DNA from: Cloeon dipterum
Lineage: Eukaryota > Arthropoda > Insecta > Ephemeroptera > Baetidae
Reading direction: 5' to 3'
Assembly: GCF_949628265.1 (NCBI RefSeq)
Contig: NC_088789.1
Span: 19,585,883 to 19,649,882 of the forward strand
DNA length: 64,000 nt
Shown here one piece after another: positions 17,441 through 54,684 of this stretch (its first letter is position 1; every line of letters begins with the position of its first letter). The notes beneath the pieces were generated by a model. That model saw only the letters and a program-made list of their open reading frames with translations, was not told the DNA's origin and did no database searches. The position numbers were made by a program, and so were the translations under genes.

Positions 17441-20400
17441 TCAGCTTGTCTCGTCTTCAGAGTCAACACTATCTGTGCTGACACTAAATGTTTTCTTCAG
17501 GGACCTAGAAAACATCTTACTCTCAATACCAGTGTGATGAACACTCATCAGCGGCATCATTGCTGACCTCAAGCTCCATATGAGACGGGGAAATAGAATT
17601 TCCTGTTGGGCAAGCAGCTGCTTTGTTCTGTGCCTCTCCTAGAAAAATTTAATTAGTTGCGACAATTTAAACTGAATTGCAGTCATACCTTTGGTGCTTC
17701 AAAACAAGCTGGACAATTTTCTTTGATGACGGGCAGATTTTTACTTTCGGCAAACTGTCGCAGATTCTTCTCCCTCACAAACACAAATGGACGAATCACC
17801 CTCAAATCTTTCTCTCTGCATTGAAAAGACGTTTTAGTTTCTATATTGCAGTTTTAGGTTACTAACTTACTTCACGTTGTAATGGGCCTTCATGGTTCTC
17901 AAGCGTCCGTTGTGGAAGGCAGACATCAAAAAGCTTTCACTCAAATCGTCCAAGTGCTGTCCCAAGGCTAATACGTTGTAGCCCTCCCTTCTTGCTGCTG
18001 CGTAGATGCGGCCTCGCTTCATTCTGCTACAAAAGCTGCAGATTGACTTGCACGCATCTTTTTCCTTCAGGTCGGTGGCTTTGTCCAAGATTCCTTTAAA
18101 CAATTTCCATGATTATTTATATTTTTCAGTGTTACGAATTATTACTCTGCTCCTCGTAAAAGTACGGAACGCCCAGCGACTCAAGGTAAGGGATCAGTGG
18201 TCTCGGGTCATAAGAGGAGGTCTGTGGATCGACAGTGACAGCTCCAAACTCAAAATCCATATTCTTCGAGCGGGCGTAAAACTGGTATTGATGGATTGTG
18301 TGCAGCAGACTGAGCGAATCCTTCCCTCCAGAGAGACAAACGAGCACTTTGTCCCCTTGCTTGATCATTCCAAACTCACGAATGGCCTGTTAAAGTTATT
18401 AAATTAGCATAATAATGGAAAACGAATATAATGAAATTGATTACCTCAACAGTTGGTTTCCAAATTTGTTTTGGGGGGCAAAACCAGCGCCCTTTGCCCA
18501 CGATCGAGGGCTTTCTGTACGAGGCCAGCATGCAGGAGGTGGCGGTCGGGTCAAACGCTTGATTCGATGATTCAGCGCTGTCAGACGTCGCATCCTCGGA
18601 ACTGTTTGCTTCTGCCTGGTTGGTCGCAACTGCAGGCCCATTTAAAAGAGGATTTGTGTCACAACTGGGCTCAAAACCTACAAATTTAGACCTTAATCAT
18701 TAAATTCTGAGGGGGCAAAATAGACTGAAAATTAAATTAACAGAAGCCGAAATTTCTGTCCTAGGATAAATTTAGTGTAGTCTGTTGCATGATTTGTGCT
18801 CATTAGATTGTCCCGCAACAATTAAAAGCTCAGAAATACTGTAATCATCTAGATTTCACAGCCTTTGGTAATATTAGCAAGTCTTCCAGAAAAGACCAAA
18901 CTCGCATGTTTATTTAGAAAAGAAAAATTTAGAAAAGATTTTCTTTTTTAAATCCTAATGAAATTATAGAAAACTACAAGCAAAACTTACAGTCATCAAT
19001 TATAGTTGGAGAGTTGCACAAAGGGCTGCGAGGGGCTGGGGAGCTGAAAGTCCTGGGTTTCCTCATTCTCAAGAGGGGTGACTCAGGCTTGATGCAATTA
19101 TTCAGCGAGTTGAGTGACTGGGAATTAGACTTCTTCATCTCCCCTGTCTCTTCCGCTATGAGGAGATCAACGGCACTGACCACCTCTCGCAGTTCTGATT
19201 TCATTTCAGACGCGAGCTTGTGGGACGCTTCCACCAGGTACTCGGCCACGTCTTCGGCCGATTTGAGCGACAGGGAACCTGCCCTGGGCCTGAATTCGGG
19301 GAGACACTCGCTCGACTCGGAGTCGTGCAGCACGTCCTGGACCTGTGAGATCACCTCGCGGATTTCAAATTGGATTTCCTTAGTGATTTCGTTCGTCATC
19401 TCCTGGACATATGTCTGGATGTCCTCGGTGCTGCGCATGTGCGCGTCCGAGTTGTCGTCAGCGCCGCCAAAGTCCTGCAGATCGGTCTGACTGCAGCAGC
19501 TGCGTTGGCTTTGCAGCAGGTAGGAGGGTAACGGGCTAGCGCACGACGAGTCCAGCGAGGAGCAGTTGTTGTTGAAGCTGTGGTTTTGATCAATGTTCAA
19601 CAGTCTGTTGTTCAGGGTCAAATTGGTCGGGTCAACACTGCCGCCCAAGTCGAAGACCACGCCGCTGCCACTACCGTTGCTTTCGACTGAGTCTTGCGGC
19701 TCTATTATTCTTGGTGGAGGAATGGGACTAGACCGAGATCCTTCGTAATTTACGGGGTTGAATGGCACTAGGTGCTTAACCTTCTGCGAGTGGCCTAGCT
19801 GCAAGTCCTGCGCCTCGCACGGCAACATGAACCATCTCAGCTGCTCGGCGTGTTCGTCAAACAACACTGTTTGATCTGCTATTGTGTACCTCTGGGCCAT
19901 CTAAAAAAGTAATTTATGATTAAATAATCTCACCAAATGTTCCAAACAGATTTAAATTTGAGGATGTGGACAAAGTATTTTGTGTGTGTGTTCTTTTAAT
20001 TATTTTTATGTTTTAGCCCCCAAAGAAATAAGAACTGACATTAAATTATGACAAAAATTAACAAATATGTCTTTCACTAGTGAACACTATTAAACTCTAA
20101 CACTGATAAAAATTAAATTTTGGTGTGAAAATTCAACTAAAAATTCAAATTGAGAAAAATTTATTGATTATACACTTTTTTATTTACTTTTAAGCAGATT
20201 TATACGCTTTTGAACGGTTTTTGAGTGTGGTTAAAACAGCTTCTACTGCAAAAAATAGTTGTAGTCATAAGAAAAACAACACTTGCCTTCCTGGCCTTGC
20301 TGAAAATATTTCTAGCAGTTTGAAGTACAAGAGCATAATTCTCAGGCACAGTTGAAGCTGCGTTGGTCGTCTTGGAGTCATTGAAATTCATTTTACCACC

Positions 20401-23400
20401 AGCGTAGTTAATGCTGCCCAGCCAGCGGCGGTCTTTGAACACCAAATTGGACCTGTGTCGCCACTCGCCAGTCTCAGGATTGAGAATGTACTGCGGCAAG
20501 AGCTTCCAACCCTCTAATGCTACCATCTTCAAGGCTTCCAGGACAAAGGCCACTTCTTCATCACTCATAAAGTACGGAAGACTGATTCGAGAAAATCCTG
20601 GACGCAGCATTTCAAAGTTTGAATGCTCTTCGTGTCTTCTCAGATGAGTTCTATCCAAGCGGCTGAAATGTAGAAGAAATTTAAGACTCACATTTAAAAA
20701 AAAACTGCATCGCAAACATTTTAGCGGATTTTTCAACAATTTCCGAAAACACGTGTTTGTGGAGTGAATCATAAATATTTCAAAATTATTATCCTTAAAA
20801 ATCCTTTAATCCAGCTCAAAATATTAGAATCTAAAATTAAGTAAATATGCTAAAACCCCATTTTTTTAATTCAGTGGCGTAAAATTGCTGAACCCTATTC
20901 AAGAAGCATCATTGAAAGGAAAAAATGATAACTTACCCATCCTCTAAGAGTATGTCTTCATATTCTTTGGCGAGATTCTCGTTTATGCCCAGCAAATCTT
21001 GGGCATAAGGTCCTGCGCAGGCACAGCCGCCACGTGCTTGGATTCCAAATACATCATTAAGAATGGTGCAAACGAAATTGTGGTGCAAAAAAGTCCCTCT
21101 TGGATGGCGAACCATGAAAGAAAACACTGCAAGGCGTTGCTTGCACGAGTGGTTTAATGGCCCCAAAAGAAGAAGCTCGGGGACGGTTTTTATGTGAGCC
21201 AGGACGTTCCTGATTAATTTTAATTAGTATTTAGTAGTAATTTGTACTGAAATCAAACATACTTGACAATCTGCTCCTCTCTTGACATAATGGCCTGTAT
21301 TCCAACGCTTTCTTTTAGCTGCATCGCTAGACCTGCTCGAACCGATTCTACGATGGCAGCTGTGCCTCCTTCTTCCCTTAATTCTATGTCCTGTAAATCA
21401 GTATATATTATTGGTAGCATATTTAAAATTTTAAAATTACTTACTTTTAAATATTTGTGGTCGTCTCTGGACACAAAGAACACCGAGCCTCCTCCGCAGC
21501 CATTGGGAGTGCTGTTTTTGAAAAGCGCCTTTTTTGCAATAAGCACTCCTAAAAAAATCAAAATTTGAAACCCTCAATTCAGCAATATTATGCTCTGTCA
21601 TTACCAGGCGTTTGTACTCCGCCGACAAATTTGTGTACTGAGAAGAACACGGCATCTTTGTATACTGAGCTCTCTCCAGCTCCGTGTAGAAGAGGGTTCA
21701 TGTCAATTTTCACATAAGGCGCTGAAAAAAAGGACGAAAATTAACACCTTGAAACAGAGTTTGCAGTTTTATCAGCCCAGCTATTGCCACAGGTGATTTT
21801 TTTCCACACACAAAACACAAACAGTCAGGTTTCTGCTGAACACTACAAATTTTCATAGAAATTATCTCTAAACACCACGCGTAAACGTGACGCGTAAATT
21901 GAAATGTTGGTGACAAATAGGTTATATTTATATAAATCTAAAATATTATTTCAGTTAAAAGTTAAGCGATAGAAAGCCAAAATTAAAGTTTTAATAAAAA
22001 ATTTTAGCGACAGAAAATACTGTCAGTAAATCTTTCGAAAAGTTGCTATCAAAATAAAAACATAATTTATAAAAAATACGTCACTTACGCAACAATTTTG
22101 CAATGGTCAAAAATTTGACTGATGAAAAATGGGACAAAAAACACATTTAAATAGAGACCTCTTGATAAAATGCTCTGTATAGGTTATTTTAATTTTAGGA
22201 TAATTTTTAGTCTTACATTTTTGCGAAAATATACTCGATCTATAAAAACCAGCGATACAAAAATGTTTCTAAGATTTTCCAAACGAGCTAAAGTGAGATT
22301 CCTGTTTCCAACTATTCCAAAAATTGCTGTAAAAAGATATGTAAATTTTGAAAATCGTTTTATCTGCCCTTCAATCTAATCCTGCTTTGAACATTTTCAT
22401 ATAGCGACTTTTCATTCGCACCTGCGGTGGCGTAGTCCCAAAAGGCAAGAGCTCCGAACTGGTGGAGCAGGAGCGTGGTGGCGACGTCGTCCGCCAAGAT
22501 GCCGGTGATATTGGACGCCGCCGAAAAGCAGCCGATCATTTGCTGATTGAGCGATGAGTGCGCCTCCAGCTGGCATTTGAGGTTGTCTAAATCCAAAAAT
22601 CCGTCCTTCGTCTCCGGGATCCGGATGATTTTTGCGCCGATCTCGCGCCATGGCAGCAGGTTTGAATGGTGTTCGCACGGGCCGACAAAGACGATCGGCG
22701 GCTCCAGAAGGTTCAGTGCGTGGATGAGCTTGTGGACGGCGCCGGTGCAGCCGTTGCCAGCGAAAATCACTGCGTCATGCTCAGAGGCATTAACTGCGTT
22801 GCGGAAAATGTCTCGCGCCTCGTGTCTGCAAAATAGAGCAGTGTTTAAAACAAAAAGCAGTGGTGTAAATATTTTTTCTATATTAAATCAGATATTATTT
22901 AATTTAGAAGAGCTAAAACAAATTTCTGCAGGTGCCTTTCAAATTTCTAAGGACAACGACTCCAAAGTTTGCATGCTAATCAAGCGGCGAGCACTTTATC
23001 CTTACTCGGAATCGTGAATTATTTCCACGAGAGTTAAATGCACCTCTTAATTTGCGCGCGACGAATATGGATCCGAAATCAAGCAAATATTCAGTGACTA
23101 ACCTTTTACTTTTCGACAAATTTAGTAAAATGTAACAGTTACTTTGTCTTGATTAGTCCTGATCTTAGTATTGCACATATTGTTAAGGATATTATTCGGA
23201 CAACCTAACATTTTGAGCAATTGCTAATTGTATAGAAATCAACTCAGATTGATGCCCGATATCAAAATCCACTTTAAATCATAAGACCAAGATCTACGAT
23301 AGCGAAATTTATGAATCCAAAATAGCTAATGAATAATAATTTCTAGTAACTTTTTTCAGCATCGCGTTATTTTAATGTGTTACTCCAAAAAATGGGGTTT

Positions 23401-26400
23401 GGGCATTAAAAATTTCATTTTAATTCAAAAAGACGTTTTATGAGAATTTCATAAAAACACGATCTCGCAAATTTAATTGAGGGTGAAACTTTGAAAAATA
23501 TATTTTACTTGCTGCACAAATATCACTATTTCTGCCGAAGTTTATTTTTTTTAGCTATTTGAAGGGCAAATCGAGTGGCAACACTGAAATATCAATGAGG
23601 CAAATTGAGTTTATTCAAAAGGGTGGTGTGTTTATTCAGACACCACAGCCGCATTATTTATCATTTTTATCTCGAGAGTCCCTCTGTCAAGGTTCCGTGA
23701 TGCCTTATCATGTGGAATGAGGATGTGGGCTTTATTGAATAAGTTAATAATATTTATAATATTATTTCTACCCAGTGCAACCAACGATTTGATGATTTCA
23801 GCCACTTAAAATCCTATATTAGATATTGAGAAACACGCCTTGCAAGAAAGGGACGGATTCATTAAGGACAGAAAGCTGGCAATGAGCAATCAATACATCA
23901 TCACAGCTGTCTGCAAATAATCAAATATAGCTCGAGCTGCTGATATGGCAACTGGCATCTCCAGCCATTTGTTTTGTCTCTTAATGAAAACAAAGGCGTT
24001 GTATCATAAAATAAAGGGCAGAAATCAATAGGCCTAGACCTTGAATTCAATTATTCCGATAAAGAAGCATTTAATTAAACAACAAAGGGCCTCTTGCAGA
24101 CATAACAGACATTCGGATTGAGTTTCAGTTCGACAACACTCATTAAAAACGGGTCGTGTCAGTCTCGTGACAAGCAAGCAAGCGTTTATTGTCTGCCAAT
24201 GATGCCTCGCGCGCGCGGGCCATGACTTCTATCAGATGCGAGCAAAAGGAGTTCAATGCCGCTGATGGTCGCACCTGAAGAGAGTGGACTGCAGCGAGGT
24301 GGTAGAGGTCGTCGTGTGGGTGTTGCCGTAGCACGGCAGAACCTCGCGCAAGATGAACTGTTCGATGAAGCTGAGCGAGCGTCCGGAGGCTGTGTAGTCG
24401 CAGTACACCACTGAAACAGAGCAAACACACGCAAATTACACACTTCATTAGGGCTATATGCACATAAATAATTGCCTCGTCCCTGAGGTGGACGCTGAAA
24501 ATTATTTACGGCTTCGGCCGTAATTTATTTCTAATTTGCTTAAACGCCCAGGGGCACCATGCATAGCTTGAAATTATTCTCATTTTTCTCGTTTCGCACG
24601 CTGCTTTGCGTGGAAAATGTCTGTCTCGCTCCGAGGTTCATGCTCTGATTGCCACGCAGCTGGTCGGCACGCGGGCTGTTTCGGCATTGCAAACGGAGAA
24701 AAGCATTTTGACGTTTCGACAGCTGCAAAAAAATTCCTCGTCGCAGCATCATCACTCTTAGCCTTGTCGCTTAAGGTCAATTATGGCGGCGTTTAGAGCT
24801 ATTATTTCAATGGGTAATCGGCTTATTTAGCAGAGGTCGGAACCGGAATAATTCTGCAGCACAAACGCAGACAATTCGAATGCCATGAATTTCCTTGACC
24901 TCGTTCGGCTTGACGAAATTGTATGGCAACGAAAATAGGTTTTTCCAACGCAGCCGCAGCAGCTCTTATAATTGATTGAGTTGTTTTTAAAATCTTTCCT
25001 TTTAGAAATAAAATACAAACATGCAGCCAGCCAAAATAGCAACTAGCAGCGTTTTCTGGAAGCCCTAAGATGCATTTTAAAGTTATACTACTGTCAGAAA
25101 CTGCAAAGGAATAAATTAAAATACAAGATTTTTTTAATTAACAAGGATCCTCTTGAGGAATCAAAGATAAAAAATTTGGAAAAATGCTAAATTAACAAGA
25201 AATATGGAGGTTTTGATCTAAAGACATTGTCGGTTAAACTGTTTATGAACCGTACAAATCTGAAAAATGGTCCGTACCTTTTACCTTATATAATATCTGC
25301 AAATTGGCCATTGGAAAAGAGCTAAAAAATCCCAGTATGCTCTTAAAATTTCTGATAAAATTCGCTCCAAAATTTGCACGCTTATTAATGTAAATTAGTA
25401 TATTTAACTGTTATTATTCCAAATTTGATTTTTGCACATTGTAGACAGCAAAATATAAAGCTGCTCTATATCAACATTAAAAAATTCCGCAAAAAAATTT
25501 AAAAAAATATTTCTGTGATATTTTCATTTTTACTCAAATTAAATAACAGAGAATAGAAATATTTAAAATTCCTAACAGTATGGGAATACGAACTCCGAAA
25601 TGATTTTGCGCCTTCAAAACAGACAGTGAGCAGTGAGTTCTCCTCAGGAACAAAACATTAATTCTAAATAGTCGTAAAAATTATAGCTCAAAATAATTTT
25701 AAAAAAAATGTGAATTAAGACGCATCTCTGAAAATAATAAAAAATGAACTCTTCATCGATCCAAATTGATCCTAGGTTAATAGAAAAGTCAAGAAGAATG
25801 CCGAAGAATCTAATTTATTTTAGAATTTTGCCAAAGATTTAAATTGAGACAAACTCCACTAACGTAATTTGAGGCCTGAGGAATCAAATGGAACCGCTTG
25901 ATGTCTTCCTGACAACCCGTTAACCCATGTCTAAAATTAGTGCTTTGTTTTGTCCCAAAAACAAAGCTGCACGGCCCTAAAAATAAAATATAGAGCACGC
26001 ACGAGGGACGAGTGCGAAGGAGCGGCCTTGAAAAGCACTCGCAAGGGAACGAACGAGATGGAATAAGAGAATATAAAAAAGCGATGCACGCCTCGACAGC
26101 TCGACTTATCTGGCGTGTTGCGCCTATAAACCATTAATGCAACTCACTGCACAGCACATAGAAACACACATTCGCAATGCATTTTTCCGCCAGTTATTAT
26201 TGATTCGATTTGCGTTTTTCTCGGCGCAAGCAACCTGTTCGTCCGGATCGATGGATCGAAGTATTCACACCATTTCCTACATTATGCAATTTAATAATTA
26301 TTATTTGTATACTGCTGCCGTCTTTCTTCACACCGACTTCACAGTCTGCGTGGCGAGCTGCGTGTGGTGGAAAATTCCGCAATCGCCAGTGAACAGTGAA

Positions 26401-28351
26401 TCACTTCTTCTTCTATCTGCCGCGTGCGAAACTCGAGTGAAAAGGGAAGTCAATTTTCACGAATAGCATTGAGCGCGTGCCAGCCAGCACTTGCTTTCGA
26501 TTGTTGACATTTATTCTCGACGACGCGCTTTAGCACAAATGACAATATATTCTCGCTGCGAATATGCACCGCAGCGCACTTCTTGTGCCGTAATTCGATT
26601 TTAAAATTCCTCTCGGTTTGCTGAGTCAGTGGAATGAAAAAAATATTTACATCGAGTTGAAAGAACCGCCTTTTTTCGTCGAAAAGTAATTATTTGTATT
26701 ATTTTGAATAGACTCGATAGAAAATATGAAAAACCTCTTAAAAGCGCCGCTAGCTATAATGATTATCTGTTATCGGGATCCACAAACATTTGACCGGAGT
26801 CCTAACAAATGTCATAAAACAAATAGAAAAGAAAAAAATCCTCTCTCTCATACAAGAAAAAGCTTACGCGTGCTTTCAAAAATTGTGCAAATTAAGCTGA
26901 ACTTTTGATTACCACGCAATTGATGCCTATTTTTCTTACTTCTACGTCGAAAAATTTTTCTTGGTAGTTAAAAAGTGCCGCCCCATAAAACAGTCAATTT
27001 TTTCACTAAAAGCCCCATTATTAACGAATAACGAAGGATAAAAATCACTACATCATTGCAATATAAAAAGTTAGGTAAAACTTCAAATTTCAGGACGAAA
27101 TTAAAGTAAAAAATTAATAATTAAATAATAATTTTATCCAGTGTAAATATGAAGTTCTGTACTCATTATATATTTTAATATGAAATAGTGCTTCAGATGT
27201 TAAGCTGAAGCTAGTCGGAAAAAAAATTGACGCTCTAGGGACTCGGGAGGAAACACATTGTCCGGGTCGTACGGGTTTTATGTTTTATTTCCATTATGGA
27301 ACGTCCATCGAGTGGCTTCTTAGGTAGAAGAGAAAATTTAATATTATATGGACTTAGCATCGATTGATACTAAAATTATAAAAATATGACCTTAAGTAAT
27401 GAATAATGAAGCACACAGAGCCATTGGAAATGCATTTTGGTAGTTGAATTGTTTTAATTTCTTAAATTTTAATAATTCCGTTACAATTAGGCTTGAAAAA
27501 CAAAGTTTACAATGCGACGTTTCAATTGATTTTTATCTTTATTTCCTACATATTTTTTTGAGTTTTTTAAAGTTCTGAATTAAAATATATGCCACGTATG
27601 CCACAAATTTTTAATTTCAATCAAGAGTAATATTGCATGATAACTTCAAAATCAATAATCAATATCCAATATCATTGATAGAAAATCTAGCTGGCAAAAT
27701 ATTACGAAATTCAAGGTGTAATAATATCTACTTGAATCAATTAAAATTTCTTATATATTTAATTATTATTCATAATAATATAACAGGGTATTTTTTTCAA
27801 TCTAAATGATGAATCGTTTCAACCCGCAGGTGCAGGGTGGAAACAAACAGGTTGTATTGGTTAAAAACACACGAGGCGATGAGAAATTACCACACACATT
27901 ACGGCAAAATCATGTGGGCGGATACTGAAGCCATGCAAACAGTTCTAACGAACATTCCAAAGGTTTATGAAACTATTTCTGATTTATTCCAGGCAGCTTG
28001 TCTTCATCTACTCATCAGCAGATTTTAAATCAGTTTATGTAGATTATCATACATGAAGTTAACTTTAAGTTATAATCATAGAAGGATAGAAGTTCCAGCC
28101 CTACTTCGTAAGCATGACTCGATTTCTAGTCTTTAGTTGATATATTAACGTTAATTAGATCAATTATTTAATGCGTCCTTACCCTTTCGCCCTCCGAAGG
28201 GTCCGCTGAAGATCGTGTCTTTCCCGATGACATTGTGGTCGATGTACTGCATCAACTTGGTCGTGTCATGGCACTTTTTTTGTCGGGACTCGCCTCCCTT
28301 GTAATTTTCGGGCAGAGAGTAAAATTTGCGTGGCCCGAACTCGCTAGACAT
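17441..28351 (-). CDS. Cysteine desulfurase-like (class V aminotransferase) / TtcA-like tRNA thiolase fusion
   Basis: Fourteen minus-strand exons join in frame into 1,212 residues: 28183-28351, 24275-24410, 22422-22825, 21605-21721, 21445-21548, 21263-21390, 20937-21209, 20287-20662, 18991-19900, 18445-18677, 18146-18386, 17871-18093, 17689-17815, 17441-17638. Residues ~60-560 form a class V PLP enzyme: DYTASGR, NTHTTT, GNGCTGA (125-131), EHHSNLLPW (153-161), Asp232, PLP lysine Lys267 in SVHKFVGG, and RGGCACAGPY (412-421), in which Cys417 aligns with the SufS catalytic cysteine. Residues ~570-920 are a serine-rich linker with a coiled-coil-like stretch. Residues ~930-1170 are a TtcA-type PP-loop domain: SGGKDS (969-974), CSFCSRMKRG (C1049/C1052), GQHLDD and CPAC (1139-1142). 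Bacterial TtcA makes 2-thiocytidine in tRNA using a [4Fe-4S] cluster held by three cysteines; cysteine desulfurases supply persulfide sulfur. A single-chain sulfur relay is inferred. The GTG-led upstream frame gives no earlier ATG. Confidence 0.88.
20281..20286 (-). other. GC-type 5' splice site at the seam of the fusion gene
   Basis: The exon ending at 20287 is followed on the minus strand by GCAAGT, the usual form of a GC-AG intron donor (AAG|GCAAGT). With this donor the frame joins in phase 0 to the 910-base linker exon, which begins ATGGCCCAG. The nearest GT, two bases inside the motif region, would break the frame. Confidence 0.7.
22115..22345. repeat. Dispersed repeat, copy 2 (in fusion-gene intron)
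   Basis: This shares flanking blocks with 12590-12820 (see that entry), again inside an intron. The inner part is shorter by about 25 bases and diverged. No terminal inverted repeats were seen by eye. Confidence 0.5.
24411..28182. other. Large first intron of the fusion gene
   Basis: This intron of about 3.8 kb lies between the first coding exon and the DYTASGR exon, while most other introns of the gene are under 1.5 kb. The junction is in frame (AAG G|TG GTG). Parts near 24540-25050 and 25990-26620 are richer in CpG than the surroundings, and 26124 has a TATAAA-like string, so enhancers or an alternative promoter are possible. I see no nested protein-coding gene. Confidence 0.5.
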
Positions 28352-29440
28352 GAGGAATATGACTAATTTTTCACTGTGAGCACTCTCGTAGAAAACCACG
28401 ACGGGCTCTTACGAACTGCTGGCAGCGACTGTCGCGGTCGTGCGAACGCCAACCCAGCGCATTGCCCGTGCTACCGCTACCACGACCACGCTGCTCGCGG
28501 ATCCCGCTGCCAACCCAGCTGACATACAAACAAGATGGACCGACCCACTTTCTGATGCGACTGCTGCACCTCTCACAAAAGTGAATTTAAAGGAGGCGGA
28601 TAAAGTGAAAAATCAAAGCTCAAATTTGAAAATAAAATTAAATGAGAGCATGAGACTCATGAGAGCAGAAGCTTGCGTGCTCAAATTTCGTCAGCTTGTT
28701 AGTTACTTGTTATTTACACGTAATTTTCGTTCGTGAATTTCGTTCAACAGGCATTAAACGCACTCAACAGCTGATGTGTAGGGGGTAGAGGCGGGGCTTA
28801 CGCAGAGGAGGAGACGAATGAGTTTGGTACTACAAAATAAGGTCATTGTGCCATTAATTTGATTGGCAAAGATCGTTTTATTGCTATTCGCTCGACTATT
28901 AAGAGCACTTTGAGTTGGTTTTTAAATGTGCGCGGTTAGGGTTTATGAAGAATGTTACAGAAAGTTCATTCCTTTCATGCTTCAGATCAGCTAAAATCGT
29001 TCAATGCGCATGCTTGTGTCCAATCCATCACTCATATTAAGAAATCGGGCCATGCTTTTGGCCAGGACTTGGAGTAATTTTTGTTAATTAACGAGTGTTG
29101 CAAGCTAAACAACAGGTTAACATCTAATGCAGCTGCGGCATTTTTTCTCGACTAAAGCCTGCGTAAGTCTGGTGTCTGCTGTTCGTGTCAATAGTCACAA
29201 CGTAGAAGCGTGTTATTAGTTTATGCTGTTGAGCACCAATCATTAGCGCTTGAACCACCACCGCATCCTTCGCGAGTCGCGTGTGTGCAGTGTGTGCACA
29301 TTTGGCGCCGATTGAGGTTTGAGCAGCTTCGAGGCCGAGTTGCAGTCGCTTTTTCGCTTTGCCAGTGCCAGCAATTGCGTTCGGGGTGAATATTTTCTGA
29401 TTGACCGCAGAACTTGCTAATCCGGCACCTAAACAAGAAA
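28352..29440. promoter_or_regulatory. Divergent promoter region: fusion gene (-) and CTP synthase (+)
   Basis: About 1.1 kb separates the two start codons. It has CpG-rich patches next to both genes (around 28400-28530 and 29220-29400) that fit 5' UTRs and core promoters without a clear TATA box. The 28440-28736 open frame overlaps this zone and shows no domain. Confidence 0.55.
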
Positions 29441-32817
<3,377 letters not shown>

Positions 32818-37146: not shown

Positions 37147-39152
37147 TTAGTGTCCGCCTACGAAGCCTCCGTAGCCGCCGTCCTCGTGCTCATATCCAGA
37201 GCTGCTGTGGCCGCTCTGGCCGCCCTTCTTGCCGAACTCGTCGTGATGGCCGCTGTACTCCTCGTGGCCGTGCTCGCCCTTGTGGCCGCTCTCGTCGTTG
37301 TGGTGGTGGCCCTTGGCGAACTGGCCCTTTTTACCGTGGTTGGCCTGCTGGTGGCCGCTTGCGTGGTGGCCACCCTTCTCATGTCCACCTTTTGCCTCCT
37401 GGAAGTGCTCCTCCTCGGCTCCGTGCTTCTTGTTGAAACCCTCCTTGTGCTCCTCGTCGTAGAACTTGTGCTCCTTCTTGTACTCGTCCTTGTGGTACGT
37501 GTTGTGGAAGCCCTTGGTGCTCGAGCCCTTCTTGTGGTAGCCCTTTGAGCCGTGGGAGGAGCCCTGCTCGCCTTTGCTGCCAGAATCTCCACCTATGGTG
37601 AAAGGATCATTTTTATTTATCACAGATTTTGAAAGAAATTAATTACATGCATGCGGCTTTTAACGTGTCCTAAATACAATTTTAAAATTTTAGGATTTTA
37701 ACTGAGTCATGGGTTCTCATTTCATTTGCAATGTCCTCAATTTTATCCTCCAAAATAGCATAAATATTGTGACGATCCAATTTCAAATCTGAAAATAAGT
37801 GGAAATGTGTTGAAACACAAAAATAGAAGCATCATTATTTACTTTAAAATAAATCTCGATTTTTTTTCTCGATGAAAAGAAGCTGTCAATTAATTTGAAT
37901 TAAAAGTATCTTTAAGTCCGAAATGCTTCTACTTTTGGTCCTCATATTTAACCCTCGCTAAGTTTTAACTCTTAATGCAATCTGCAATAAAAAAAACCGA
38001 CCTAGCCCGGCAATTCCAGCTTTAAATCAATTTAGTTTTGTTGGCCCATTAACTTATCTTCTTATTTCTGGCTCAGTTATGATGGCAAATCATTATTTTT
38101 TAAGTTTATATAAATAATTTTCTGCTATGTATGGGTTATTTTTAGAGATTAATACTCTCGGCTTGAGAGAAACAGGGAAAAGTAAAATAGAAAGCAGCGA
38201 GTGGATTAACTAAAAAAGCCCCAAATTAGTGAAAATCGAGCATATCTCTCCTCGAACTGAAAGCCAATATTGTACTAATATAGGCTTCTGTTTATTAAGT
38301 ATACAATCTTTTTAACTTAAAATGCTCATTTTGATGATACAGACTAAGTTTAAAAATCAATCTATTTCTTATTTTCCTGATTTTGAAACAAATAAATGAA
38401 TATTTTATTTAACAATTATTTTCTGACAAATAATGTTTCATCCATAGACTAGTTTTCATTATTTTTTCTCTAAATATCCACTTAGAAAATAAAGTCTGGC
38501 TCAATTACCTTTAATTTTACAAACATAATTTTGGTGAGGGAACAGTCGGAAGAGTCTTACCTGCGTAGTACGCCTTTTCCTCAAATTGTCCCTTCTTGTT
38601 GGCACCGTCCTCTTCAAAGTGTCCACTCTGTCCGCCCTTGTCGAACTTGCCACTCTGGCCCTTGTGGAAGCCACTGCTGCCCTTGTGCCCCTTGGCGCCC
38701 TTTGAGCCCCCAGCATTGTAGTGTTCAGCGTGGTGCTGACCGCCGCCGCCCTTCTTGAACTCGCCTCCGCTGCCGCCACCGTGCGCCGCGTACAGGTTGC
38801 CGTGCTGCTGGTAGCCGTCAGCGAGGCCGTGGCCGCCGCCGTAGCCGCGTCCGAAGTTGAAGTACGTGCCCAAGGCAGCCGGCTGCGCCGAGAAGTGGCC
38901 GCCAGAGGCCGCGGCCGCCGGGCCGCTGACCACGTGACTGTAGCTGACGCCGTCGCCGTTGTGGTACACTTGGTAGGTGGAGGGCGCCGGCTCTGCGTCC
39001 ACCTGCACCAGCGGCCCGTCCAGCACCGGCAGCAGCTGGTTGATGTGGGCCCCCGGGGGCAGCAGCATCATCGGCGCTAGGTGGGCCGCGTGGGCCGCCG
39101 CCCAGACCGCCGCAACAAACACTACGAGAGGGACACCGGCACTTGTGCTCAT
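37147..39152 (-). CDS. Secreted Gly/His/Lys-rich protein A (cuticle-like)
   Basis: Two exons (38561-39152 and 37147-37592, minus strand) join in frame into about 345 residues. The ATG at 39152 is used because the frame upstream has only a TTG. A signal peptide (MSTSAGVPLVVFVAAVWAAA) is followed by a non-repetitive, proline/alanine-rich part to about residue 110, then glycine-, lysine- and histidine-rich low-complexity sequence. The second exon has the family block FHNTYHKDEYKKEHKFYDEE, then GHEKGGHH and GEHGHEEYSGHHDEFGKKGG. Similar proteins in insects are generally called cuticle or histidine-rich glycoprotein-like; the exact role is unknown. A TATA box (TATAAAAA, 39201-39208 on the minus strand) lies about 50 bases before the ATG. 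It is a paralogue of B and C. Confidence 0.82.
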
Positions 39153-43957: not shown

Positions 43958-45738
43958 TTAGTGGTGGCCGCCACCGCCTCCGCCGCCACCTCCCTTCTTG
44001 GACTCGTGGCCGTGCTCCTCGTGGCCCTCGTCGCCGCCCTTCTTGCCCCAGTGGTCCTCGTGGTCGTGGTGGCTGCTGTCGCCGTGTTCGCCCTTCCAGC
44101 CCTTGTGGCTGCTGTCGTGGTGTCCCTTGCCCCAGTGGCCCTTCTTGCCGTACTTGTCCTCGTGGTGGCCGCCCTTGTGGTGTCCGCCCTTCTCGTGGCC
44201 GCCCTTCTTGTCAGAGTGGTGCTCGTGATGCGAGCCCTTCTTCTCGTGGTGTCCCTCATCGTAGTGCTCGTCGAAGAACTTCTTTTCCTTCTTGTGCTCG
44301 TCCAGCTTGTGGATGTCGTGCGAGCCGTGCGTGCTGTGTCCCTTCTTGTAGCTATCCTCGTCGCCGAACTTGTGCCCTTTGTGGCCCTTGCTACCCTTGT
44401 GGTGCTCACCGTAGTGGCCGCCCTCCTCGTGGTGGCCCTTCTTGTGCCCGCCGTCCTCGGAGAAGTGGCCCTCCTTGCCCTCCTTGTCGTGGTGTCCCTT
44501 CTCGCCCTTGTGCCACCCGTGGTCAGATTTGTGGCCCTTGCCGCCCTTCTTGCCACCCTTCGAGAAGTGCGACGAGTGGTGTTCCCCGCCGCCGCCCTTC
44601 TTTGACGAGTGGCCCGAGGCCGCCGGCACCAGGTCGTCGCCGGCGAACGACCACACGTCAACTACGCGCGAGCCATCCACAAACTGGTCTGTTGATGCCG
44701 AGATTGCTGTTTCCTGCAACAAAATTAAAAATTGTTTATTTAGGATAAATCTTTCAAACTAAATGCGTACTGAAATATTTCCAAAATTAAATTTAATGCT
44801 TCGTGTGATGAAAATCAGGAAGGTAATGTTTTAGCTAACCTATATTTGAATTACACTTTGTTTCCAATTGAAATTATGTTATTTTTACGTTTTAATTGGA
44901 TGCGGGAATTTAAAAAGGAAAAACTACCCTGCTGATCTGCAATAAACTTAATTTTGAATTTGAAAATATAAAAGTTTATTCTTGAATTTTTTTTCTCAGA
45001 TTTGGATTTTCTTTGTACAGTGTTTATGCTTGCTGAAATTGATCTCCAACTGCTGTATTTTATGATTCCAATAAGTCCTACCTTTTACCATTTGTAACTT
45101 TAATTTTTCGAGACACAGAGGGTCAAAGGTTGAAAAACGGGTATTTTTAGTTCGGTTAATAGTGATAAAATCAAAATTGCGCGATTGGTTGATTTTTACC
45201 CTCAGAACATGGCCCTGAGGTCAGATAAGACCATTAAGAATAGACAAAATATCGAACCCTTGCGTCAGGGTATAGCCCACAAGCGATCGATATTATTAAT
45301 TTGCACATGTAGCCACTTTAACGACGCCTGACGGGCTCTGTATTGGCTCAATCTGAAAGATCTGCACTCAGTTAAAACTGCTAAAAGTAAAGAGCTTTAA
45401 GAATAGGTGCAATTCGACCAGTTTGAAGACATCAAGGTGCTCAAAAAATGTCCTAAATGTGCCCAAAGTTTTGTTCCTGAGCACCATGATGGTTATTTTA
45501 TCTTTTTTAACATCAAAACTATTTAATTTTTAAATTGAATATTCTTTGAGGAAGTTTGCCTTTGATTTTACTGATTAATAAAATCCTAAAAAATCTTTAA
45601 ACCTTCAACTAAACAAAAATTAGAATGAATGAAATTTACCGATGCCGGCCATCCACCGACGCTGAAGATCTCCCTAGCGAATCCGGTTGCCTGAAGAAGG
45701 CCGAGCACCGCGACCAAGCACCACGTAGGAGCACCCAT
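43958..45738 (-). CDS. Secreted His/Lys/Gly-rich protein B (cuticle-like)
   Basis: Two exons (45640-45738 and 43958-44713, minus strand) join in phase 0 into about 284 residues. Exon 1 encodes only the signal peptide and the first mature residues (MGAPTWCLVAVLGLLQATGF, then AREIFSVGGWPAS). The intron is about 0.9 kb. Exon 2 has a short unique stretch ending AASGHSS, then histidine/lysine/glycine-rich sequence with the family blocks SEDGGHKKGHHEEGGH, HSDKKGGHEKGGHHKGGHH and DHKGW-like SHKGWKGEHG, ending in a glycine run and HH. It is the closest relative of gene C over the middle part. A TATA-like GATAAATAAG lies at 45791-45800 on the minus strand, about 55 bases before the ATG. It is probably extracellular; histidine and lysine could take part in metal binding or cross-linking, but that is inference. 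Confidence 0.8.
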
Positions 45739-47854: not shown

Positions 47855-48829
47855 TTAATGGTGACCACCGCCGCCGCCGCCGCCTCCGTGACCGCCTCCG
47901 CCGCCACCGCCTCCGTGTCCGCCACCGCCGCCTCCGCCAGAGCTGAAGCCGTGCGAGCTGTGTCCCTCGTCGCCGCCCTTCTTGCCGTAGTCGTAGTGGT
48001 GGCCGCTGTACTCTTCGTGGCCGTGCTCGCCCTTCCAGCCCTTGTGGTCGCTGTCGTGGTGTCCCTTGTCGTGATGACCCTTCTTGTTGTACTTGTCCTC
48101 GTGGTGGCCGCCCTTGTGGTGTCCGCCCTTCTCGTGGCCTCCCTTCTTGTCCGAGTGGTGCTCGTCGAAGTCACCGTACTTCTTGGAGTGGCCGCCCTTG
48201 TGGAAGTCGTCGTAGAACTTGTGCTCCTTCTTGTACTCGTCCTTGTGGTACGTGTTGTGGTAACCCTTGGTCGAATCTCCCTTCTTGTGTCCACCCTTCT
48301 CGCCGAAGCTGGAGCCCTTCTCGCCCTTGCTGCCCTTGTCGTGGTGGCTGTGGTGGCCGCCCTCCTCGTGGTGGCCCTTCTTGTGGCCGCCGTCCTCGCT
48401 GTGGTGTCCGGACTTGTCCTCCTTGTCGTGGTGGCCCTTCTCTCCCTTGTCATAGCCGCTGCTGCCCTTGTGCCCCTTGGAGCCCTTGCTGCCCTTGGAG
48501 CCGTGGTGCGACGAGTGGTGTTTCTTGCCGCCGCCCTTCTTGCTGCTGCTCTCGCTGCCGCCTCCGTGGCCTCCACCACCGCCGCCGCCGCCTCCACCTC
48601 CGTGTCCTCCACTAGCGGCCACGGCCAGGTCGCCGCCCCAGAAGTAGTGGTGCGAGGGTGCCGGCGCCAAGTCTCCGGGGATGTACTCCCTGACGGGCCG
48701 CACGGACATGACCAGGCCTCTGGCGTCCAGTTGCGGTGCCGCCTGTTGGCGGAAAAGCGGGAGTTCGCGGGCCAACGCCGCCGTGCAGAGGACTGCGAGA
48801 GCGACCAGACACGGCCGCGGGTACCACAT
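47855..48829 (-). CDS. Secreted Gly/His-rich protein C (cuticle-like), single exon
   Basis: One uninterrupted frame of 324 residues starts at an ATG. A signal peptide (MWYPRPCLVALAVLCTAALA) leads to a unique segment (PVREYIPGDLAPAPSHHYFW), a glycine-histidine run, then the family blocks EDGGHKKGHHEEGGHHSHHD, YHNTYHKDEYKKEHKFYDD, HSDKKGGHEKGGHHKGGHH, DHKGWKGEHGHEEYSGHHYD and a C-terminal series of GGGGGGGHGG repeats ending HH. The HNTYHKDEYKKEHKFYD block matches gene A almost exactly, also at the nucleotide level. A TATA box (TATAAAT, 48898-48904, minus strand) lies about 70 bases before the ATG. The frame open on the other strand over the same bases is an effect of codon choice. Confidence 0.85.
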   Translation of the reverse strand: MWYPRPCLVALAVLCTAALARELPLFRQQAAPQLDARGLVMSVRPVREYIPGDLAPAPSHHYFWGGDLAVAASGGHGGGGGGGGGGGHGGGSESSSKKGGGKKHHSSHHGSKGSKGSKGHKGSSGYDKGEKGHHDKEDKSGHHSEDGGHKKGHHEEGGHHSHHDKGSKGEKGSSFGEKGGHKKGDSTKGYHNTYHKDEYKKEHKFYDDFHKGGHSKKYGDFDEHHSDKKGGHEKGGHHKGGHHEDKYNKKGHHDKGHHDSDHKGWKGEHGHEEYSGHHYDYGKKGGDEGHSSHGFSSGGGGGGGHGGGGGGGGHGGGGGGGGHH

Positions 48830-48897
48830 GGCTAGAGCTGATCTGAGCCCCTCAAGCCTTGGATAACTTGTGTGCTGTCTGCGGTCGCGGATGCCTC

Positions 48898-53101: not shown

Positions 53102-54684
53102 TCATTCGTCATCCTCGCTTTTGCTGCTCTCATCGTCGTCGAACTTTGCCAAGTACGAATCGTACATGTGGCTGAAGCTGCCCTCGCCTTCACCCTCGTC
53201 CTCGCCGCTCTCGGAGGCCTCGCTGCCGCCGTCGTCGTCCGACTCGTACGAAAAGAGTCCTTTGCCCTGGCCGATCTTGTGGCTGTGCGCCCCGTACCCG
53301 CCAAAATCGCCACCCCCACCCTTGTGGCCCTCGTCGTCGTCGTCTGAAGAGTGGCTGCTGGAGTAGCTGCCGCTGTCGTGCCACGAGTCGCTGTCCTCAC
53401 CGCCCGATTTTTTGCCGTGCCCGCTAGACGACTCGTGACCCCAAGTGTCGCCGTCCTTCTTATCGAAGCTGTCGCTCTTCTTGTAGCCGTTGTCGCCCTT
53501 GTATGACTTGGAGTCGTGGTAGCTCGACTCCTTCTTGCCCCCTTTGTTGCCGCTACCGCCGCCGCTTGAACTGCCGCTGGCCGCCTCGTAAAGGTCACTT
53601 GGGGGACGAACTTGCACCTCTCTCACCACCGACTCGACTACGGCAGTGTCTTCCATGTCTTCACTGAAAAAATGATGCGAGCAGAGCAATGTGCCTTTAA
53701 CATATTATTATGAAATTATATGCAACATATTACTAATAACCCGAAAATTGTAATAGGTTTAAAAATAATTATTTTAGGATCATTTTAAGGTTACTGTTTT
53801 GTTGCTTAATTATTTAATTACTGAGAGTTATCTTAATGTGCAGCTTTTTTTAAATAGGTGCTCTTATAATAATTTAATTTTTAACAAAATTTAGGTAAAT
53901 AAATTGTCAATGCGAAAATAATTGAATATTGTAATAAATACTAAGTATAAAAATAATAAATACGCATAGTCCGGAAATAGTAGTTTCTTTTAAGTGTTTT
54001 AATTTATGATTTTTACCAATTAAAAAATAAAATGCCATTAAAAACGGCAAATTCCTTTTCCAATACCAAAAAACTCGTAGAAATATAGTATTTTGAAGGT
54101 GACCAAAACTTATTCATTAAATATGAATAAGTTGAACACTGAATACGCTAGAACTGGCCGAGCCATAAAATCCCTAATTAAATCGTTGAGGCTGAAGTCT
54201 AGTAATTAATTTTCCAGTCCAGAACTATCAGTATTTTGGTGAGCTTGAATTTGAGCTTTCAATAATTTCAGTAGTCACCTGGGGATATTTTTTTGTTTTA
54301 CTTCCCCGTCGTTTGCGAGCAAAAGAGGTAAAAAGGAACCAAAATCTCTATGGTTTATTGATTGAAAATTTTAATTTGCGAACGTCAAAAACTATGCAAG
54401 CATCGATTTATTTCACCTAAAATTGTCACTTAAACAAATTTCCCTTGAAAATATCAATAACTTCCTTTTTGAAATTTTTACAATTTTTTAACCTGAGTGA
54501 ATTCAACCAAATTGAAAGAGTTGCGTTGTTTGAATTGAACAAAAATGTATTTACTCTAGCAAACGTTTTGTCTATCGATTACATAGAACAAAATCACTCA
54601 CATGTGCGCTACCCCTGCGAGAGCAAGCGCCGCGCAGAGGAGCAGCCCCGCGGCGGCCGTCCTGATGCAGTGTCCACCGATCAT
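53102..54684 (-). CDS. Secreted acidic Ser/Gly/Asp-rich protein D
   Basis: Two exons (54602-54684 and 53102-53663, minus strand) join in phase 2 into about 214 residues. Exon 1 encodes a signal peptide (MIGGHCIRTAAAGLLLCAAL, ending near LAGVAH). Exon 2 has a short conserved-looking part (DTAVVESVVREVQVRPPSDL, then YEAASG), a glycine/serine/lysine stretch with SYKGDNGYKKSDSFDKK and SGHGKKSGG, then an acidic serine-rich C-terminus (SYESDDDGG, ending SKSEDDE). It has the same general plan as A-C (signal exon, ASG motif, low-complexity tail) but is acidic and serine-rich, with far fewer histidines. It could be a diverged paralogue or an unrelated matrix protein; binding of calcium or mineral is speculation. 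A TATA box lies at 54726-54733. Confidence 0.78.

Follow-up and report, generated by a model that had tools for sequence, protein, structure and literature searches.

A predicted mayfly gene joins a cysteine desulfurase-like domain to a TtcA-like thiolase domain

Can an animal carry the sulfur donor and the sulfur acceptor of an RNA thiolation on one polypeptide? The question is raised by a minus-strand gene in a 64,000-nucleotide stretch of the Cloeon dipterum genome (contig NC_088789.1, positions 19,585,883 to 19,649,882; hereafter the window), whose predicted product joins a pyridoxal phosphate (PLP)-dependent domain resembling SufS cysteine desulfurases to a PP-loop domain resembling the transfer RNA (tRNA) thiolase TtcA. 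In the available text of one review, cytosolic tRNA thiolation in animals depends on NFS1, MOCS3, URM1, and CTU1/2 acting on U34 (PMC5372717). The accessible part of another review describes TtcA as making 2-thiocytidine at position 32 (s2C32) with the help of a [4Fe-4S] cluster bound by three cysteines from two CxxC motifs, adds that an iron of this cluster may briefly carry the donated sulfide, and lists IscS alongside TtcA as desulfurase and s2C32 for bacteria and archaea (PMC5372739); the suggestion of the initial annotation that such a thiolation is not described in animals agrees with that listing.

Resplicing of the window sequence reproduced the 14 exons, the 1,212 codons in one frame and the 20287/19900 and 18991/18677 junctions that the initial annotation had put forward. 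The gene runs from 28351 to 17441, and its spliced coding sequence of 3,639 bases encodes 1,212 residues followed by a single terminal stop. Twelve of the 13 introns are GT-AG. The remaining one (20287/19900), which separates exon 8 from exon 9, is of the GC-AG type, a point absent from the initial annotation, and its donor at 20287 has the full consensus AAG/GCAAGT. A Pfam scan of the protein placed Aminotran_5 at residues 59-423 (expectation value, E, 3e-35) and ATP_bind_3 at residues 963-1136 (E 3.1e-13), and all the motifs claimed earlier were present at their residues: EHHSNLLPW at 153, Lys267 within HKFVGG, RGGCACAGP at 412 and Cys417 in the PLP half, and SGGKDS at 969, CSFCSRMKRG at 1049 and CPAC at 1139 in the TtcA half. 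The proposed donor-acceptor architecture is thus supported, as a prediction, by frame, splice signals and domain homology.

The joins between the halves were considered individually. The alignment with bacterial relatives of the PLP half extends over residues 30-598, and the C-terminal motif of their family, LRWFxLP, is encoded in exon 9, past the 20287/19900 join; an [L/R]RWF tail is found in 82 of 86 bacterial loci, and in one of the four without it the contig stops 144 bases on. Because this homology crosses the exon 8/9 join, the GC-AG intron is supported. Exon 9 is also coding past the PLP homology (residues 600-872): none of 5,000 shuffles of this linker segment remained open, and its codon log-odds were +130 in frame versus -46 and -14 in the other two forward frames, with +51, +70, and -74 in the reverse frames, which contain 8, 4, and 16 stops, respectively. 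In the stretch of linker encoded by exon 10, the codon signal is weak (+22.8 versus +24.3 in one reverse frame), and the exon 9/10 join (18991/18677) is predicted from splice signals and frame. Altogether, the predicted gene model holds, and the two halves are predicted to form one protein.

The affiliation of the PLP half was examined by homology searches covering bacterial, plasmid, and viral collections. This half passed the gathering score of the class-V aminotransferase superfamily PF00266 (122.3 versus 21.5 bits) and stayed far below the curated cut-off of the SufS model TIGR01979 (125.3 versus 475.1 bits). Lys267 and Cys417 align with the PLP lysine and the persulfide cysteine of SufS-type chains, and the earlier alignment of Cys417 with the SufS nucleophile holds in the four phmmer alignments displayed. 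As a structural proxy, the model of a bacterial relative (L011, 46% identity) with a mean predicted local distance difference test (pLDDT) score of 81.4 was used in place of the insect protein itself; all 50 PDB matches listed, among 1,436 with E <= 0.001, were SufS/CsdB-type cysteine desulfurases or selenocysteine lyase (20-23% identity, E 3.5e-20 to 4.5e-18). The model suggests that the PLP half is SufS-like in fold, and it shares with SufS-type (group II class-V) desulfurases the PLP lysine, the histidine, the arginine, and the position of the nucleophilic cysteine. Unlike them, it has an additional invariant cysteine (Cys415), a C-terminal LRWFxLP tail, a replaced glutamine in the PLP pocket and a fused thiolase.

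Closer relatives are bacterial. Plasmids yielded 212 records (best 40.5% identity over 95% of the query), and the best 80 of 589 confirmed genomic loci, the best-scoring of which reached 46%, were combined with six plasmid loci into a set of 86 with identities of 38-47%. The GCxC motif occurs in 85 of them, and annotated members are called aminotransferase class V-fold PLP-dependent enzymes. In a seven-row alignment with the six plasmid relatives, His154, Asp232, Lys267, Arg412, Cys415, and Cys417 are invariant, and the homology is full-length, including the LRWFxLP tail and the C-x-C motif. The label "SufS-like" given by the initial annotation therefore stands for fold, by proxy, and for catalytic residues, but not for family, since the PLP half belongs to a bacterial class-V family with the signature RGGC(S/A)CAGP, apart from SufS proper. 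PANTHER includes a family, PTHR43686 ("sulfurtransferase-related"), one subfamily of which is named for aminotransferase class V and may point to animal fusions of this kind; a literature search on that name found no paper.

Some neighbours of these bacterial genes were recorded. Two plasmid relatives (L003 and L004) lie amid genes for ABC transporters, an L-2-amino-thiazoline-4-carboxylic acid hydrolase and an M20 aminoacylase, and another (L006) adjoins an MBL hydrolase and a TauE/SafE sulfite exporter, which are hints of sulfur-compound catabolism. In two of 27 PLP-relative frames (L017:9083-11749 and L069:8654-11707), the open frame also encodes N-terminal cyclic-nucleotide-binding domains. 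No informative recurrent neighbour was found near the bacterial PLP genes. Most of the recurrent clusters listed consisted of frames that overlap the PLP gene; apart from these, an ABC-type ATPase family turned up in 10 loci, at varying distances, and other families in 4 or 5.

The TtcA half shares with TtcA the PP-loop (969-974), both CxxC pairs (1049/1052 and 1139/1142) and co-linearity over the domain, but is only about 30-38% identical to canonical-type TtcA and does not reach the TtcA equivalog model NF007972 (189.3 bits versus a cut-off of 272), as is also true of two bacterial TtcA-like relatives (218.4 and 196.9 bits). Among 398 genomes drawn from the phylum to which an alphaproteobacterial genome belongs, three had relatives with E <= 1e-40, at 54, 51, and 36% identity. 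In the bacterial class of the first of these, which is also that of genome G237, relatives with 47-62% identity were present in 77 of 229 genomes (E <= 1e-45). For the phyla of G014 and G003 (by title Nannocystis and an Acidobacteria bacterium), no genome matched at E 1e-45 among the 140 and 99 drawn, respectively, although such an empty answer carries weight only alongside a known positive. In a maximum-likelihood tree of 46 rows, the insect sequence grouped with 26 TtcA-like rows (support 100/98), opposite 19 other TtcA-family rows; of those 19, L010 alone has a score against the TtcA model (495 bits). Branches are long for L008 and L205, and the tree does not settle where the insect sequence sits within its group. 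Thus, "TtcA-like" was the right label, and it can be refined: the TtcA half groups with a separate bacterial "CPAC" subfamily rather than with canonical TtcA. Bacterial members are mostly about 240-300 residues long, with start codons set by us, and their neighbours in 22 loci, recognized by eye, are presumably housekeeping genes (D-Tyr-tRNA deacylase, lipid A acyltransferase, his operon, Trk). In viral contigs, the TtcA half alone found no relative, while profile searches found 45 TtcA loci, with long matches 29-36% identical, and one distant PLP relative (28%).

What the CPAC subfamily does was approached through its distribution in the same 229 genomes, using the L010 product as canonical query at E <= 1e-60. 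Canonical-type TtcA was present in 102 genomes (104 matches, five of which contain internal stops and a few of which are only 38-44% identical), and neither gene was found at these thresholds in 51. Both genes occurred together in a single genome (G445), compared with 34 expected (Fisher p 7.5e-25, a value that ignores kinship among the genomes). Moreover, in 25 genomes with the TtcA-like gene the sole match to canonical TtcA (E 1e-25) was the TtcA-like gene itself, and six of seven genomes without it had canonical-type TtcA. This near-exclusive distribution indicates that the subfamily probably does the job of TtcA, so that one tRNA C32 thiolase has probably been replaced by another in these bacteria, and it suggests a second family of tRNA C32 thiolases. 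Since the subfamily seems to stand in for TtcA, a role of the C32 type is favoured over an undescribed reaction.

With a desulfurase-like and a TtcA-like domain on one chain and the catalytic residues kept in each, the predicted protein is most simply read as a self-contained relay of sulfur from cysteine to RNA, plausibly tRNA C32, a reading of activity and substrate to which we give about even chances. The PLP domain would take sulfur from L-cysteine through an aldimine at Lys267 and a persulfide on Cys417, and a linker of roughly 340 residues would let it reach the C-terminal domain. The latter would bind a [4Fe-4S] cluster through its two CxxC pairs and activate a tRNA cytidine, most likely C32, with adenosine triphosphate at the PP-loop, and the sulfur would then be inserted into that cytidine, bypassing separate carriers of the NFS1/URM1 type. 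The more specific idea that the insect may make s2C32 with one enzyme carrying its own desulfurase, independently of NFS1 and URM1, is advanced only tentatively.

The relay shares with the animal s2U34 route the logic of a desulfurase feeding a PP-loop thiolase, but in that route NFS1 and the carrier proteins are separate, whereas here donor and acceptor are on one chain. MOCS3 of the animal route is itself fused to a sulfur-carrying rhodanese domain, according to the available text of PMC5372717. A literature search on titles and the openings of abstracts found no description of such a desulfurase-TtcA fusion, and similar animal fusions may already lie unremarked in databases. The parts are of known kinds; it is their joining that is new.

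Several observations weigh against the relay. The bacterial families are kept apart in our sample, and the insect gene unites them: no significant match to the TtcA half was found near the PLP genes at 86 loci (best E 3.2), of which the 80 genomic ones span 3.5-21.7 kb and 32 of these at least 20 kb, and no significant match to the PLP half was found in 22 TtcA-like loci of 10.7-19.5 kb (best E 2.0). Seven of 18 records with a PLP relative (one viral) held any match to the TtcA half at E 0.001. Within the class of 229 genomes, the six with a PLP relative (E 1e-60, 39-43% identity) all lacked the TtcA-like gene, and five of them had canonical-type TtcA. As the families are neither adjacent at these loci nor co-occurring in this class, the relay is without support from a bacterial genetic link. 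In the PLP pocket, Thr235 stands in the phmmer alignments at the position of the glutamine of SufS, and the six plasmid relatives have alanine or glycine there; in SufS this glutamine contacts PLP, and its replacement could mean a different substrate. In the proxy model, pLDDT falls below 50 at residues 147-151, an active-site loop, and the model is therefore informative on fold only. Finally, the figure for the exclusion between TtcA and TtcA-like genes takes no account of shared ancestry, and the gene model is a prediction from DNA.

Other explanations differ from the relay in what they assume about function or about the gene itself. A real relay with another target, whether a different tRNA position, another RNA, or a small molecule, is a serious contender that we nevertheless consider somewhat unlikely. 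It would be in line with the placement of the TtcA half in a separate subfamily under the equivalog cut-off, with the PDB matches of this half, which are U34 and U54 thiolases of the NcsA type and TtuA, and with the absence of animal s2C32 from the listing in the available text of PMC5372739, but the near-exclusion in 229 genomes argues for the same job as TtcA. Less probable, and in our judgment unlikely, is that the PLP half is another class-V C-S lyase or an amino-acid enzyme, with the sulfur of the TtcA half coming from elsewhere and the fusion serving regulation or channelling of something else. The distance from the SufS cut-off, the replacement of the pocket glutamine by threonine, alanine, or glycine, the uptake/catabolic gene row of the two plasmid relatives and the exporter beside the third would suit such an enzyme, and the wider set of loci offers no informative recurrent neighbour. 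On the other hand, the protein retains the lysine, histidine, arginine, and cysteine of the desulfurase site, none of which varies among its relatives, every one of the 50 listed fold matches of the proxy is a cysteine desulfurase or selenocysteine lyase, and a sulfur donor fits a fusion to a thiolase.

Two separate products instead of a fusion, namely a PLP-only transcript that ends in intron 8 or 9 and a TtcA-like one whose start lies in intron 9 or exon 10, would be quite improbable. Exon 8 has a donor of the less common GC class, and reading past it at 20287 adds 28 codons before an in-frame stop, making a short PLP-only transcript possible from the sequence; a retained intron 9 meets a stop at 18974, the coding signal of the exon-10 linker is weak, and Met922, just ahead of the TtcA-like domain, could serve as a separate start. 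Yet the PLP-family homology continues across the exon 8/9 join, exon 9 is coding right to its donor, and exon 10 is open for just six codons upstream of its acceptor, with 922 as its first methionine. An assembly or contamination artefact is scarcely credible: the nearest relatives of both halves are bacterial in the collections searched, but the gene has 13 introns, four of which have 34.5% GC compared with 0.54-0.69 GC at third codon positions along the coding sequence, and matches among its neighbouring frames are to the calreticulin family (two), CTP synthase, ING, and DUF4779 (two). Flanks and introns are those of an animal, which DUF4779 and the glycine- and histidine-rich proteins mark as probably an insect, and a bacterial contaminant is very unlikely.

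The exons, all on the minus strand, are distributed over the protein as follows. The start codon and the N-terminal arm of the PLP domain (GPFGGRK) lie in exon 1 (28183..28351, residues 1-56), followed by exon 2 (24275..24410, residues 57-101, VVYCDYTASGRSL), exon 3 (22422..22825, residues 102-236), which encodes EHHSNLLPW with His154 and also Asp232, and exon 4 (21605..21721, residues 237-275) with the PLP lysine Lys267. Exons 5 (21445..21548, residues 276-310) and 6 (21263..21390, residues 311-352) precede exon 7 (20937..21209, residues 353-443), with R412-G-G-C415-A-C417-A-G-P, and exon 8 (20287..20662, residues 444-569), which terminates at the GC-AG donor. The C-terminal tail of the PLP family (LRWFMLP, to residue 598) and most of the linker are in exon 9 (18991..19900, residues 570-872), and the linker end with the N-terminal arm of the TtcA-like domain (CPPKQIWKP) is in exon 10 (18445..18677, residues 873-950). 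The PP-loop SGGKDS (969-974) is in exon 11 (18146..18386, residues 951-1030), Cys1049/Cys1052 and HLDD in exon 12 (17871..18093, residues 1031-1104), Cys1139/Cys1142 in exon 13 (17689..17815, residues 1105-1147), and residues 1148-1212 with the stop in exon 14 (17441..17638).

Elsewhere in the window, an N-terminal coding piece of CTP synthase (29405-29647, plus strand) is arranged head-to-head with the fusion gene at a distance of about 1 kb. Two glycine- and histidine-rich minus-strand frames (37147-37638 and 47855-48895) match DUF4779; together with frames like them at 43958-44758 and 53102-53704, they point to secreted or cuticle-like genes clustered in tandem between 37147 and 53704.

Independently of the fusion, the near-exclusion of TtcA and TtcA-like genes suggests a second TtcA in bacteria. 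The fusion makes a new animal thionucleoside directly testable and provides a single-chain model of the passage of persulfide sulfur to a [4Fe-4S] PP-loop thiolase, a step whose mechanism is treated as unclear in the review text available. If s2C32 is indeed made by the fusion, an animal thionucleoside pathway would have been built from families that are unfused and unlinked in the bacteria examined.

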